Positions 661 to 59,613 of a stretch of 64,000 bases of DNA are shown piece after piece (position 1 is the stretch's first letter; each line of letters opens with the position of its first letter). A model generated the notes under the pieces. The model was not told where the DNA came from. It was given only the letters and a program-made list of their open reading frames with translations, and did no database searches. The translations under genes and the position numbers were made by a program. The stretch is from positions 1-64,000 of the forward strand of contig JABILX010000001.1 in assembly GCA_018654255.1 (NCBI GenBank). Reading direction: 5' to 3'. This DNA is from Candidatus Peregrinibacteria bacterium (GTDB taxonomy: Bacteria > Patescibacteriota > Gracilibacteria > UBA1369 > LOWO2-01-FULL-3).

Positions 661-1553
661 CAGTTTAAAGGATGTTTCAACACCTGCTCCTGCAAATGAC
701 TTACAGACGCAGACAAGTAGATTGTAGTCGTTTTGATATCACTATGTCCAAGCATTTTCGACAACGCATAAATATCACACCCACCCTCCAACATCAAAGT
801 AGCAAAAGTATGTCGTAATCTATGAGAAGAAAAATAAACACCAGTAACAACTCTTACTCTCCGCACAACTACCTTCAAGCCACTATAAGTAAAAGGTATA
901 TCTCCTCTTATAGAAGTAAAGAAATTAGGACACTCTCTCCCGAGTCTTTTCCTGTCAGTTAAGTATTCTTTAAGAATATTTCTCAAAGCTCTGCATATAG
1001 GAACAACCCTGTCCTTTCCGCCTTTCCCCCCGTTTATAGAGATAATATCATTTGCCAAATCAACCTCACTAAACTTCAGGCATAGTACCTCCTTAGCCCT
1101 CAGCCCAGCATAAATCATCAGAGCAAATACAGCACGATTCCTATACCTTTCAAACCGATAAGTGGTCTTCATATTAAAGGAATATTCAAGAACCTTTAGA
1201 GCCTCCTGCTTGGAGATTCTCTTGGGAAGCTTTCTCTCCAATCGCGGTTTCTCAATAGGAGTAATGGGGTTTGATTCCATATACTCTCTACTTACGCACC
1301 ACTTGAAGAAAGACTTCAATCCCTTGTAGTAATTGATGAAGGTATCAGCGGTCCAATGACGCTCAATTCTCCCATAATAAAGATAACGTCTAAGAGCCTC
1401 AGTACTGACCTCTTCGAGGTATTCAACCCCGCTATGCTTCAGAAAGTTGCCTATACTGAACTTGTACCACCTTATAGTGGCAGGACTCAGGTTACGGATA
1501 ACCCGAGCTTCTTCACAGAACTGCTCGTGCAGTTCTTTAATATTCATTTTCAT
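660..1553 (-). CDS. Tyrosine recombinase/integrase
   Basis: This 297-residue site-specific recombinase has an N-terminal SAM-like core-binding domain (about residues 5-95) and a C-terminal catalytic domain. The full catalytic set is visible: R152 (GLRAKEV), K177 region (GGKGGK), H244-x-x-R247 (HRLRH), H270 (LGH) and nucleophile Y279 (TTIYLS). It is distinct from the second, more XerC/D-like recombinase at 58.7-59.6 kb. The gene lies just downstream of the 3' end of tRNA-Thr on the same strand, the usual place for an island integrase. Its stop overlaps the start of the TSP-repeat gene. An integrase role is inferred from this context; a role in inverting DNA near the surface-protein gene is an alternative. 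Confidence 0.88.
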   Translation of the reverse strand: MKMNIKELHEQFCEEARVIRNLSPATIRWYKFSIGNFLKHSGVEYLEEVSTEALRRYLYYGRIERHWTADTFINYYKGLKSFFKWCVSREYMESNPITPIEKPRLERKLPKRISKQEALKVLEYSFNMKTTYRFERYRNRAVFALMIYAGLRAKEVLCLKFSEVDLANDIISINGGKGGKDRVVPICRALRNILKEYLTDRKRLGRECPNFFTSIRGDIPFTYSGLKVVVRRVRVVTGVYFSSHRLRHTFATLMLEGGCDIYALSKMLGHSDIKTTTIYLSASVSHLQEQVLKHPLN

Positions 1554-18716: not shown

Positions 18717-18810
18717 TAGAAAGTATTCAGTTGTTTTTTCATTCTCATGAGAATGAAAAACTGAGTCTCTGAACATGTTCAGAGGCGAAGCTCCACAATT
18801 GTACTTTCTA
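18717..18810. other. Structured element II, copy 1 (closing stem plus two palindromes)
   Basis: TAGAAAGTA (18717-18725) pairs with TACTTTCTA (18802-18810). Inside lie a perfect 26-bp palindrome (18735-18760, centre TCATGA) and a perfect 18-bp palindrome (18767-18784, CTCTGAACATGTTCAGAG). The second copy is at 55079-55168. On the minus strand the element sits after the guaA stop and the smaller palindrome is followed by a T run, so it could terminate guaA transcription. Confidence 0.75.
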
Positions 18811-18830
18811 GAGATTCTTTCCAATACGCC

Positions 18831-20624
18831 CTATTCCCACTCAATAGTCCCCGGAGGTTTATTCGTAATATCATAGAAAATCGCCCCAACCCCCTCAACC
18901 GCAGCCAACCTTCCAACCAACTCATCTAATAACTCCCACTCCATCTTATAAAACGAAGCAGTCATAGCCTCTTCACTTTCAACCGGCCTCAAAACCACAG
19001 ACTCCCCAGAACCCGAACCACCAACCGTCAACGGAACCAACACAGTAGGGAACTGCCAAATTTCTCGATCCAATTTCTTCTCCAAAATAAAATCCATCAC
19101 AACCTTATCAGCCTCCTGTAAAACCGCAATACGCTCTGGGGTTAGATAGGATTTGACCAACTCAACCCCACCTTCAAGCGATCCACCTACCAAATACAAA
19201 GCCCTATTCAATTCTGCAAATTTATTAACAATTTTAGTTCCAACCAAAGCCAGTCGATCCCAATCCTTTTCCCCTCCACTCAAAACAACAGGATGTTTAT
19301 ACGAACGAACATCACCTTGAACTCCAACACTCTTCAGAGGCAAAACCGAAACCGCATATCCATCAGAATCCGAAGCCAAATCCAAATCAACTACCTCACC
19401 AGTACCAGACTCCGAGCTACACAAACACCTCACCGCCAAACCCGGCCCAGGAAACGGATGTCTCCAAACCATATCGTTAGGAAGCCCAAGTGATTCGCCA
19501 ACCTTGCGCACCTCATCCTTGTACAGCTGCGCGATTGGTTCAATGACTAATCCCCTGTCAATCAGCTCCTGAACCTCAGGAACCCTATTGTGATGCGTTT
19601 TTATAGTATCTGCGTGCTTGGTGCCGCCAGTTTCAATAGTATCTGGATAAATAGTTCCTTGCCCAAGAATCCACTCTTCAGCATTCAGTCCCAGTTCACC
19701 AAGAACACGTTTCTGAATCTCTATAAATTTCGCACCAATAATCGCGCGTTTCTCCTCCGGATCGTATACTTCACGCAAAGCTTCAAAAAATTCATTACTA
19801 GCATCTTCAACTTTCAAATTAGTAACCCCCAACTCACGTAACGCTCCCTCGACTTGATCCCTCTCCCCCTTCCTCATAAACCCAATATCAACAAACAAAC
19901 CATAAACTCGTTCATTCCCCAGCGCCTTCTCCAAAAGCGTAAAGGCAACAGTCGAATCGACTCCACCAGATACAAGCATAAATACTTTCCGATCCCCAAC
20001 TTTCTCGCGCACAGCCTCAATCTCAGCAGCAATAAATTTCTCAATACTCCACTCACGCTTCGCCTGACAAATCTCAACAAAATTCTCCAAAACCTTCATC
20101 CCATGGGGCGTGTGAGTTACCTCTGGATGAAACTGCAATCCATAAAATAAATGCTTCTCATTCGCCATTCCAGCAAACTTACAATCATCAGTAGATGCAA
20201 TAACCTCAAATCCTTCAGGTATCTTCGCAACCTGATCAAAATGGCTCATCCAAGCAACTTCTTGATCTTCAAGCCCATCCAAAATCCCCTTTCCAGCGTC
20301 CAAAATCTGCACATTAGCTCGTCCATATTCACGGACTTTCCCAGGCTCAACAATCCCATCCAAAACATGCGCCATCACCTGATGTCCATAACAAATTCCA
20401 AGCACAGGCACCCCCAAACCAAAAATCCCAGGGTCACATTGCAAACTATCCTTTGCATGAACACTCTGCGGCCCGCCAGACAAAATCACGCCTTTATAAG
20501 ATCGCAATTCATCTGCATCAATCTCACCATCACGGATATCACTATAGACTCCCAGCCGACGTATACGATTTGCAATCAAATGCGCATATTGCCCACCAAA
20601 GTCTAAAACAACAATTTTATCCAT
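18831..20624 (-). CDS. guaA: GMP synthase (glutamine-hydrolysing), long form
   Basis: GuaA converts XMP to GMP using ATP and glutamine-derived ammonia. The class I amidotransferase domain (1-190) has the nucleophile C78 in GICYGHQ and the His/Glu of LQFHPEVTHT. The ATP-pyrophosphatase domain starts at LVSGGVDSTVAF, and PFPGPGLAVRCL and the C-terminal KPPGTIEWE bind XMP. At 597 residues it is about 70-85 longer than typical bacterial forms. SVGVQGDVRSY comes before an extra ~100-residue segment instead of close to the end, which is the layout of the eukaryotic enzyme. It overlaps lysS by 8 bp, so the two are co-transcribed. Confidence 0.95.
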   Translation of the reverse strand: MDKIVVLDFGGQYAHLIANRIRRLGVYSDIRDGEIDADELRSYKGVILSGGPQSVHAKDSLQCDPGIFGLGVPVLGICYGHQVMAHVLDGIVEPGKVREYGRANVQILDAGKGILDGLEDQEVAWMSHFDQVAKIPEGFEVIASTDDCKFAGMANEKHLFYGLQFHPEVTHTPHGMKVLENFVEICQAKREWSIEKFIAAEIEAVREKVGDRKVFMLVSGGVDSTVAFTLLEKALGNERVYGLFVDIGFMRKGERDQVEGALRELGVTNLKVEDASNEFFEALREVYDPEEKRAIIGAKFIEIQKRVLGELGLNAEEWILGQGTIYPDTIETGGTKHADTIKTHHNRVPEVQELIDRGLVIEPIAQLYKDEVRKVGESLGLPNDMVWRHPFPGPGLAVRCLCSSESGTGEVVDLDLASDSDGYAVSVLPLKSVGVQGDVRSYKHPVVLSGGEKDWDRLALVGTKIVNKFAELNRALYLVGGSLEGGVELVKSYLTPERIAVLQEADKVVMDFILEKKLDREIWQFPTVLVPLTVGGSGSGESVVLRPVESEEAMTASFYKMEWELLDELVGRLAAVEGVGAIFYDITNKPPGTIEWE

Positions 20625-55000: not shown

Positions 55001-55078
55001 GGAGCAACACTATATAGAAAAATTAATGCAAAAAAAAGGTCAGGATTCCACCAACTCAATTATTATAAAGGGAAAATG

Positions 55079-55168
55079 AAAAAGTGTTAGCAATATTTTT
55101 GAGTATCACGATGCTCAAAAACTGAAAGGTTGAACATGTTCAACCTTTCAGAGTTATTGATCACTTTT
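55079..55168. other. Structured element II, copy 2 (closing stem plus two palindromes)
   Basis: AAAAGTG (55080-55086) pairs with CACTTTT (55162-55168). Inside are a 26-base near-palindrome (55096-55121) and a perfect 30-base palindrome (55122-55151) with the same TGAACATGTTCA centre as copy 1. The order and the spacing of the two palindromes' cores match copy 1 at 18717. It lies after the L,D-transpeptidase stop (minus strand). Confidence 0.75.
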
Positions 55169-55180
55169 GAAGATTCTCTT

Positions 55181-56341
55181 TTAATAATGTATATAGATCG
55201 GATCTCCAACCTCAGTAAACGCAAATGCGAAGTCTGCATCCTCAGGAAGCATCCTTACACATCCATGACTCATAGGTTGTCCAATATGATCTAGAGCTTC
55301 ACTCCAGAATGTCCCACCATCAGTACTAAGGCTAGGCAAAGCATGTAGACCAGCTCCTTGAGAAGTGAACATTTGGAACCTTGGCATCACGTAATGAGGC
55401 CATGCGTGTCCAACTCTGACTTCATTTTTCAAGAAGAGCTTGAAAGTTCCAGTCGGGGTAGGAGTTGCAGCAGCACCAGTACTAACTATAAACTCTCTCA
55501 CGATATGATCATCAATTTTCAGCCATAGTCTTTGCTCAGAAAGATCAACTTCCACGCTTCTTTCCCCGTTAATTTTCATGTCATCAACATTCATACTTTG
55601 ATTCACGTACAAAAGTTTCTTTCGAAGCTCAGCAGCACTATCTCTAGTTACACCAGTATATAGGTCAACTTTGAATTCAGCTTCTTCCATCCAACCACCA
55701 TCTTCTATATAAGGAGAGAAGTACTCTCTATATACACTAGGCTCATCATCAGACTCTGCCCAGAATGTATAAGAAACGATCTCGCCTGGATCAACTCTCA
55801 TCTGACCCTTATCCATTCTTATGCTACTTTTAGATATAGCTCCATTATCTTCTTTTGCGATCGATGGATCCAAGAAGTGACTCTCTCTTCCATAATCATG
55901 AGTCGTACCTATATTTACTCTCACACCAAGACAGTCACTGTCAGGTGAGAACCAAGGCATATTACCATCATTCTTTAAATAAACTTTTACACGGAACATC
56001 TCATCAGTCGCATAACGGAATTTCTTCCTTACTGTAATCAATTGAGCTTTGTAAGAAGCTTCTTCACCTCCACGATCAGGAAATCCACAAACATCTTCTT
56101 CTACAGCATTGTCAGCTTCAACCAAATCAGCTTCATCAACTTCAACTTCAGCAACAGCAGCAACCTTCACAGAAGGTTTCACGCTAGGCGCTTGAGCAAC
56201 ACGAATAGTGTTTTGGGAATGAAGAACGGAGTTATACATTACCGTAGGAGTGCCAGGTAGTGTATTGGAATTGTCTGGTAAATAAAGAACGGCAGACAAA
56301 GCGAGTCCGAACACAACTAGCATTGAAACAGTTTTTTTCAT
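55181..56341 (-). CDS. L,D-transpeptidase (YkuD domain)
   Basis: This 386-residue exported protein has a signal or anchor helix, an unusual middle domain (about 90-265, VCGFPDRGGE...) likely beta-rich and involved in wall binding, and a C-terminal YkuD domain (about 270-386: VEVDLSEQRLWLKIDD, STGAAATPTPTGTF) with the active-site motif SHGCVRM and a preceding His. It makes 3-3 cross-links or attaches proteins to peptidoglycan and is resistant to most beta-lactams except carbapenems. It precedes structured element II. Confidence 0.93.
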   Translation of the reverse strand: MKKTVSMLVVFGLALSAVLYLPDNSNTLPGTPTVMYNSVLHSQNTIRVAQAPSVKPSVKVAAVAEVEVDEADLVEADNAVEEDVCGFPDRGGEEASYKAQLITVRKKFRYATDEMFRVKVYLKNDGNMPWFSPDSDCLGVRVNIGTTHDYGRESHFLDPSIAKEDNGAISKSSIRMDKGQMRVDPGEIVSYTFWAESDDEPSVYREYFSPYIEDGGWMEEAEFKVDLYTGVTRDSAAELRKKLLYVNQSMNVDDMKINGERSVEVDLSEQRLWLKIDDHIVREFIVSTGAAATPTPTGTFKLFLKNEVRVGHAWPHYVMPRFQMFTSQGAGLHALPSLSTDGGTFWSEALDHIGQPMSHGCVRMLPEDADFAFAFTEVGDPIYIHY

Positions 56342-58494: not shown

Positions 58495-58560
58495 GATTTA
58501 ATCCGGATTAATCTTCCAACCTGTTAGGTCTAACCTGTAAAATCTAATCCGGATTAAATC
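58495..58560. repeat. 16-bp inverted repeat upstream of xer
   Basis: GATTTAATCCGGATTA (58495-58510) and TAATCCGGATTAAATC (58545-58560) are perfect reverse complements 34 bases apart; each is itself nearly palindromic (TTAATCCGGATTAA). AACCTGT occurs twice in the centre. Rest of the region to 58700 shows no gene. Confidence 0.65.
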
Positions 58561-58630: not shown

Positions 58631-58678
58631 GGTGCCGTAGCGAAGTGAAGGCGCCAACCGAGGCCTTTAGCCGAGGTT
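58631..58678 (+). other. Two adjacent hairpins in the xer leader
   Basis: GGTGCC (58631-58636)/GGCGCC (58650-58655), then immediately AACCGAGGC (58656-58664)/GCCGAGGTT (58670-58678) with a CTTTA loop. In the second, AACC/GGTT and GGC/GCC are separated by symmetric GA/GA, the layout of tandem sheared G-A pairs in RNA. Confidence 0.5.
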
Positions 58679-58701
58679 CACCACCCCATCACAAAAAACC
58701 T

Positions 58702-59613
58702 ATGAAAACATCTCAACACATAAAAGACTTTCTCGAATACTGCGAGGTTACGAAAAACCAATCCGAAAAAACAATTGAAAACTACGCTCACTACTTGAGC
58801 AGATTCAAGGAATTTCTTCACGTAAACCGCACTCCCGACCTCACCCCAAACAAAATCGACCTCAAACTAATAAACAAGTATCGCCTCTACCTCAACCGCC
58901 ACCCCTCTGCGATCTCAACCAAAACCCAAAACTACCACGTCATCGCCCTCAGAGCTTTCCTGAAATACCTGACCAAAAACGACATCCCAACCCTAGCCCC
59001 AGAAAAAATCGAACTCCCAAAAATAGATGAAAGAACCGTAGAAGTCCTAAGCAAAGAAGAATTAGAAGCCCTTTTTAAAATCCCAAACACAAAAACTCTA
59101 AAAGGCGCACGAGACCTCGCAATACTTGAAACCCTATACTCAACAGGCCTCCGAGTTTCAGAGCTCCAATCTCTCGACCGCGACCAGATCAACTTAAAAA
59201 GAAAAGAATTCATGGTCCGAGGAAAAGGCAAAAAACCAAGAATTGTATTTCTCTCAGAAAAAGCAGCAGAAATAATTGAAGATTATTTGAAAATGAGGGC
59301 AGATCACCAAGCGCCACTATTCATTTCGATTCCAAGGTCACCAAAATCCGCCACAGATATATTGAAAGTAAACCGCCTCTCAACAGTATCGATCCAAAAA
59401 ACAGTCTCTTCATGTGCACGAAAAGCAGGAATAGTGAAAAAAGTAACACCCCACACTTTGAGACACAGTTTCGCGACCCAACTTCTAATAAACGGGGCAG
59501 ACATAAGATCCGTCCAAGAACTTCTCGGCCACGCCTCAATCACAACAACCCAAATCTACACTCACGTCACAAACAAGGCACTCCGAGAAATCCACGCCAA
59601 GTTTCACAAATAG
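58702..59613 (+). CDS. XerC/D-like tyrosine recombinase
   Basis: This 303-residue recombinase (ATG at 58702; the frame extends to a GTG inside the leader hairpins) has the N-terminal SAM-like domain and the catalytic residues R151 (GLRVSEL), K175 region (RGKGKKPR), H251-x-x-R254 (HTLRHS), H277 (LGHAS) and Y286 (TQIYTH). Length and motifs fit the Xer enzymes that resolve chromosome dimers at dif. In genomes with one Xer this is usually the housekeeping enzyme. The 16-bp inverted repeat upstream may be related. Followed 42 bp later by ftsE. Confidence 0.92.
   Translation: MKTSQHIKDFLEYCEVTKNQSEKTIENYAHYLSRFKEFLHVNRTPDLTPNKIDLKLINKYRLYLNRHPSAISTKTQNYHVIALRAFLKYLTKNDIPTLAPEKIELPKIDERTVEVLSKEELEALFKIPNTKTLKGARDLAILETLYSTGLRVSELQSLDRDQINLKRKEFMVRGKGKKPRIVFLSEKAAEIIEDYLKMRADHQAPLFISIPRSPKSATDILKVNRLSTVSIQKTVSSCARKAGIVKKVTPHTLRHSFATQLLINGADIRSVQELLGHASITTTQIYTHVTNKALREIHAKFHK

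Follow-up and report, generated by a model that had tools for sequence, protein, structure and literature searches.

At the ends of IS200/IS605 elements and in integron attC sites, single-stranded DNA is folded and has unpaired bases that are specific to one strand, and a stem with two apical hairpins forms the 'rabbit ears' of the AAV terminal repeat and the Streptomyces telomere. Among dispersed repeats, MITEs are short, non-coding sequences with constant inverted repeats at their ends that are present or absent at orthologous sites. REP elements and REPINs, short palindromes of 20-40 bp associated with RAYT, a Y1 HUH protein, are extragenic, hairpin-forming and patchily distributed, and the accessible text of PMC2817692 gives more than 100 REP elements per genome. 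The double-hairpin elements of mitochondria (Allomyces, sponges) are intergenic and mobile-looking, by a mechanism that the available part of PMC2800124 describes as unsettled. In the accessible portion of PMC6006769 the lagging-strand template is named as the target of IS608 and ISDra2, and in those of PMC8604942 and PMC8794818 template switching homogenises inverted arms, makes reverse-complement copies and inverts spacers.

Here we describe a family of palindromic elements, two copies of which lie in the window, the whole 64,000-nucleotide stretch of Candidatus Peregrinibacteria DNA that was analysed. Its members measure about 135 bp, often longer. With a probability that we put a little below 60 %, this is a family of dispersed DNA repeats in which the C-rich strand, when single-stranded at replication forks, folds up into a stem and two hairpins, and in which template switching remakes the arms. 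The element resembles small palindromic mobile repeats in behaviour and, by description, looks most like the mitochondrial double-hairpin elements; those are organellar, however, and neither replication orientation nor a covarying closing stem is described in the available part of PMC2800124. It shares with REP elements and REPINs an extragenic, palindromic, hairpin-forming and patchy character, but forms a three-way junction, measures at least about 135 nt and is scarce, with only six copies in the genome of the window (G000) and at most 16 matches in any genome. Like MITEs it is short, non-coding, built of inverted repeats and present or absent at orthologous sites, but its arms are locus-specific and shared terminal repeats were seen in one genome only (G004). 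Although the strand-specific unpaired bases of the putative folded form recall IS200/IS605 ends and attC sites, neither a transposase nor a cassette array lies beside the copies whose neighbours were scanned, and, unlike the linear ends formed by AAV and Streptomyces telomeres, the element occupies internal chromosomal sites. No description of it was recognised among the papers that searches of open-licence PMC returned.

Folded as the plus strand, both window copies give a three-way junction consisting of a stem with a 5' bulge (P1) and two hairpins (P2 and P3), as listed in Table 1. When each copy was compared with 200 shuffles, the fold was better than 200/200 in both cases (z -4.9 and -7.4); the minus strand also folds well. 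In copy 1 the 26-nt perfect palindrome (18735-18760) is followed by AAAAACTGA and then by TGAACATGTTCA at 18770-18781. The P2 tip is CATG in copy 1 or CACG in copy 2 and the P3 tip is ACATGT, and copy 2 has CUGA paired with UCAG where copy 1 has CU-AG pairs and a tandem G.A/A.G mismatch.

The original prediction had placed two structured copies at these positions, and sequence and fold confirm them. It had put a 26-base palindrome and a second palindrome into the shared plan and had spoken of perfect palindromes of 26 and 30 bases; both lengths are perfect, but there is one per copy, the 26-nt palindrome being P2 of copy 1 and the 30-nt palindrome P3 of copy 2. The plan said to be shared by the copies holds for order and fold, while the first hairpin of copy 2 is imperfect and the second of copy 1 is shorter, with a U.G pair. 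The claim that such palindromes are rare by chance agrees with the shuffle comparison, and among short-looped perfect palindromes of the window these two are the longest.

Table 1. Coordinates of the two window copies, their parts and the adjoining genes.
Feature	Position	Strand	Evidence or remark
Copy 1, conserved core (P1, P2, P3)	18717..18811	+	Covariance models: R1 E 8.4e-23, R2 E 9.9e-23; fold
Copy 1, outer P1 5' arm TAGAAAGTA	18717..18725	+	Pairs with 18802-18810
Copy 1, wider imperfect arms	18700-18725/18802-18827	+	
Copy 1, P1 bulge TT, 5' side	18726..18727	+	Fold
Copy 1, inner P1 5' arm	18728..18734	+	Pairs with 18795-18801
Copy 1, P2, 11 bp, tip CATG	18735..18760	+	Fold, palindrome scan
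Copy 1, P3: CU-AG pairs, tandem G.A/A.G mismatch, 9 bp, tip CATG inside TGAACATGTTCA	18761..18790	+	
Copy 1, outer P1 3' arm TACTTTCTA	18802..18810	+	Fold
Copy 2, conserved core	55077..55172	+	Covariance models: R1 E 2.7e-22, R2 E 4.2e-22; fold
Copy 2, outer P1 5' arm	55080..55086	+	Pairs with 55162-55168; fold
Copy 2, further outer pairs	55068-55074/55174-55180	+	Fold
Copy 2, P2, 11 pairs, tip CACG	55096..55121	+	Fold
Copy 2, P3, 30-nt perfect palindrome containing TGAACATGTTCA	55122..55151	+	Fold, palindrome scan
guaA-like gene (named in the original prediction), neighbour, not part of the element	18831..20624	-	Stop codon 20 nt from copy 1
L,D-transpeptidase (YkuD) gene, neighbour, not part of the element	55181..56341	-	PF03734 E 1.5e-19; stop codon 9 nt from copy 2

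Exact matches to the 12-mer TGAACATGTTCA number four in the genome, and its reversed control has none. Covariance model R1, built from four copies, finds six copies in this 1.24-Mb genome at E 6e-19 or better; contigs C2 and C3 carry three each, in every case on the plus strand. A lack of other copies in the genome, which would have spoken against the original prediction, is not what was seen, and in 6/6 copies a stop codon lies 6, 9, 16, 16, 17 or 20 nt away. Model R2, built from 16 copies, matches 13/30 genomes of the same family at E 0.001, leaving 17/30 without a match, and 14/89 genomes of the order at E 1e-5 (11 in the same family, 2 and 1 in two others). Under stricter filters (E 1e-6) it matches 13 of 353 genomes of the class, every one within the order, and class genomes outside the order gave no match. 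The same core plan and the same tips recur in three families of the order. One genus is richest and supplies the maximum of 16 matches, counted on both strands, and no element was found in four species of another genus (completeness 87-99 %). The copy in G006 is found by R1 only, R2 missing it at E 0.001, and two candidate hits in G055 and G035 (E 0.0055 and 0.012; loci L022 and L023) were dropped since their fold differs. Plasmids (one query), phages (one query) and viral contigs (two exact patterns) gave no match, and Rfam returned no element match at gathering score for the window and five other loci, its E-value matches being at chance level only.

Two sets of copies underlie the counts below. 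The 64-copy set was obtained from 92 matches by keeping, for each place, the orientation that scored higher and by removing identical sequences. The 57-copy set omits reverse-strand duplicates and four weaker separate hits (G001:C23:31197, G028:C30:6691, G001:C3:19399 and G020:C6:33017), the last of which is included in the 27 copies used for GC skew.

Compensatory changes are usually taken as proof of functional RNA. In this family covariation is very strong, yet the base-pair spectrum, orientation and turnover of the element point to folded DNA. Two-sided changes are seen at 28/29 pairs of the 16-copy alignment, including 7/7 pairs of inner P1, and the covariation score is 0.841 (slid partners 0.065-0.108, shuffles 0.218), in an alignment that was fitted to the structure and so favours the score. 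The closing stem also extends beyond the core: bases 10-20 nt outside it pair with the opposite flank in 54/57 copies, against 21/57 in a control with right flanks swapped between copies. The sequence of these outer arms varies from locus to locus and the pairing is kept.

A structured RNA on either strand is expected to favour one of G-T or A-C. Covariation here is almost wholly Watson-Crick, and the 1847 paired cells of the 64 copies hold 33 G-T/T-G and 27 A-C/C-A; G-T is no commoner than A-C, which argues that the pairing is not kept as RNA. Persistent mismatches on the same strand of these copies are biased (G.A 106 vs T.C 15; T.T 63 vs A.A 6), and the bias would suit a folded plus strand; a few conserved positions supply most of these counts, and the counts lack independence. 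The stems of five ortholog pairs complicate the picture: 13 double compensations stand beside 24 broken pairs, and a further 10 changes went via G-T.

The orientation of the element is independent of the direction of neighbouring genes: the left and right genes of the 57 copies are -- in 17, ++ in 13, +- (convergent) in 18 and -+ (divergent) in 7, with no left gene in 2. It does follow replication. GC skew on the plus strand of the element is negative, that is, C-rich, in 25/27 copies (20-kb intervals, hand-picked where contigs are long; sign test 6e-6), and 12/13 unmixed contigs agree (P 0.003). Third codon positions carry the same skew for genes of both strands in most intervals, those of G020:C4 and C5 being weak. 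Over all 57 loci, with intervals of mixed and mostly smaller size as many loci are short, the skew is negative in 49/57. At both exceptions among the 27 (G020:C3:73744 and G025:C30:73630), a related species holds the element in the usual orientation. The lagging strand is usually the C-rich one, and by this rule the folded strand would be the nascent lagging strand.

Comparison of orthologous sites reveals turnover. At four of them (1, A, E and G2), G020 has no element and its relatives do. At site 1 an insert of ~190 bp, with ends AAATTGTTCG...CGAACAATTT beside a T run, is found in G001 and G025 and is absent in G020. At site A the empty sequence of G020 reads AAGTAA|TTACAC, and the right arm of the filled site in G025 includes TTACTTCTTCTCCTC, which repeats, in reverse complement, the last part of the left gene, in the host left flank. 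At site E, G001 and G028 share one element (94/95 core bases, flanks 81-86 %), and G025 carries a different one though its locus is 92.6 % identical to that of G001 over 3.1 kb; the right side in G025 probably repeats the left flank in inverted form. At site G2 the elements of G001 and G025 are different and in opposite orientations. Elements of related species differ from one another at some shared sites, and at two of these they are in reverse orientation. Inverted host copying is clear at one of the four sites, suggestive at a second and not seen at the other two, and a TTTT repeat at one of the four may be a target duplication, of which the remaining three give no clear sign. G020 and G028 have almost the same core at site F, where their outer arms are different but for the most part remain paired; some orthologous cores are nearly unchanged (94/95 and 96/96). 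Site D of G001, at first taken as empty, holds an apparent element remnant. Gain and loss are indistinguishable at most sites.

In the reading that we favour, new copies would enter, and old ones would be rebuilt, at replication forks, the folded strand forming in the lagging strand. Entry via the lagging strand is suggested by the orientation of the element to the fork. Polymerase switching templates between the arms would keep them complementary, lengthen them into the flank and sometimes invert the core, which could account for the locus-unique complementary arms, the reversed copies and site A. It leaves unexplained the constant core in three families and the appearance of copies at new places. 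The location behind genes probably reflects that insertions there do little harm. Sites that are filled, empty, reversed or extended offer a natural series for the origin, spread and remaking of palindromes at bacterial forks.

The hairpin tips vary little. CATG lies within the P3 tip in 60/64 copies, the P3 loop is exactly GTACATGTTA in 46/64 (GAACATGTTC in 6, related forms in 4 and other forms in 8), and P2 is exactly 11 bp in 40/64. These features, with CATG in both hairpins, suggest from sequence that a protein may read the folded core. The original prediction had offered a protein-binding site among its options; the conserved tips are compatible with one, and it stays a candidate reading. 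Both tips are CACG, not CATG, in three copies (L089:7391-7486, L113:19356-19450 and L062:868-964), a joint change of P 2e-4 that was chosen after looking; a copy on G028:C83 has CACG in P3 only. Kissing of the two loops through CATG was rejected since CACG in both hairpins would break such pairing, and because three copies carry it there, a shared reader fits better. A more specific proposal, which we regard as speculative and rather unlikely, is a mobile DNA without fixed ends: a single-stranded, two-eared hairpin core would enter the lagging strand in one orientation, prime itself, build arms from adjoining host sequence and be read by a putative protein through its CATG tips.

Several other explanations have to be weighed. 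A MITE- or REP-like non-autonomous transposon that depends on a conventional HUH or DDE transposase acting in trans is possible, though we doubt it: presence and absence at orthologous sites, the Y1 transposases (PF01797) of G000 and G018, and three similar longer copies in G004, two of them with 17-bp terminal repeats, speak for such a transposon, but constant ends are not seen outside G004, the outer arms are locus-specific yet paired, target duplication is not consistent, and PF01797 is absent from G020 and G025, both element-bearing and 98 % complete. The original term 'REP-like' applies in the broad sense of a dispersed, extragenic, palindromic repeat, patchy among species, and not in that of a Y1 partner, which only 2/6 element-bearing genomes possess. 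A chromosomal site under selection, oriented of necessity to replication, where a host protein would bind the folded or duplex form in connection with fork pausing, segregation or repair, could explain the replication orientation, the constant tips, the recurrent 11-bp P2 and the nearly unchanged orthologous cores; it is quite unlikely given that sites are not conserved between species and that 17/30 genomes of the family and 75/89 of the order, including four species of one genus, have no match.

A terminator of transcription in both directions, or an RNA structure of the 3' UTR, is still less probable. It would fit the position behind stop codons and the enrichment in convergent gaps (18/55, against 9.8 expected by length, P 0.003, or 7.3 by number, P 9e-5, expectations that rest on simple ORF calling), as well as the two terminator-like matches in the 301-bp region of each window copy, against 0.1-0.2 in shuffles. 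One of the two near copy 1, however, is outside the element; both copies have such matches on the minus strand, copy 2 also a weak one on the plus strand, and a clear T-tract occurs on the minus strand only, with a tail of five T at best. Of the 'double terminator' put forward originally, the position behind genes is all that is accounted for, since G-U is not preferred over A-C and orientation tracks the replication strand, not the gene. That the palindromes grew as a neutral by-product of template switching, with neither mobility nor a reader protein, seems to us highly improbable: the process is known to homogenise arms and to invert spacers, according to the accessible parts of PMC8604942 and PMC8794818, but the same core plan and tips in three families of the order are hard to reconcile with it.

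No mobilising protein was identified in the scans for Y1 transposases and tyrosine recombinases. The former was rejected as a general requirement, being present in 2/6 element genomes; the latter (PF00589) are uninformative, as they occur in 29/30 genomes with or without elements. G000 has three (window 59044-59574, window 705-1157 and C3 62923-63405). A perfect 16-nt inverted repeat with a 34-nt spacer (GATTTAATCCGGATTA/TAATCCGGATTAAATC, window 58495-58560) lies just upstream of a tyrosine-recombinase ORF (58645-59613), and in G020 an element (L057:4254-4350, at G020:C4:19253) stands directly behind a tyrosine recombinase gene (G020:C4:18584-19108).

The three copies of G004 (L044, L051 and L056) represent a longer form of about 275 bp with an extra right-arm hairpin, CAATTTCCC-GCTG-GGGAAATTG; they are 89-94 % identical over 207-281 bp, and the 17-bp terminal repeats found in 2/3 are inverted. 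Draft contigs end at or near element sites (G025:C8 start, C30 end; G028:C2 start, C81 end), as if the palindromes disturbed assembly. Sliding folds along contig C2 bring out other strong structures as well. A shared function of flanking genes was rejected, the scanned neighbours being unrelated (among others UvrB, a PEP-utilising enzyme, a chaperonin, an MraY-type glycosyltransferase and SPFH); a right gene of 493 aa that recurs in the neighbour list is produced by the edge of the loci and is not real. By tblastn, the guaA-like protein beside copy 1 has its best named relative, 52 % identical, in a Candidatus Peregrinibacteria MAG, which makes the host probably a patescibacterium near that group. 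A 545-aa ORF without a Pfam match (L060 84-1721) adjoins a Cpn60-family chaperonin gene, and in G025 the Cpn60-family chaperonin gene is flanked by two elements in opposite orientations.
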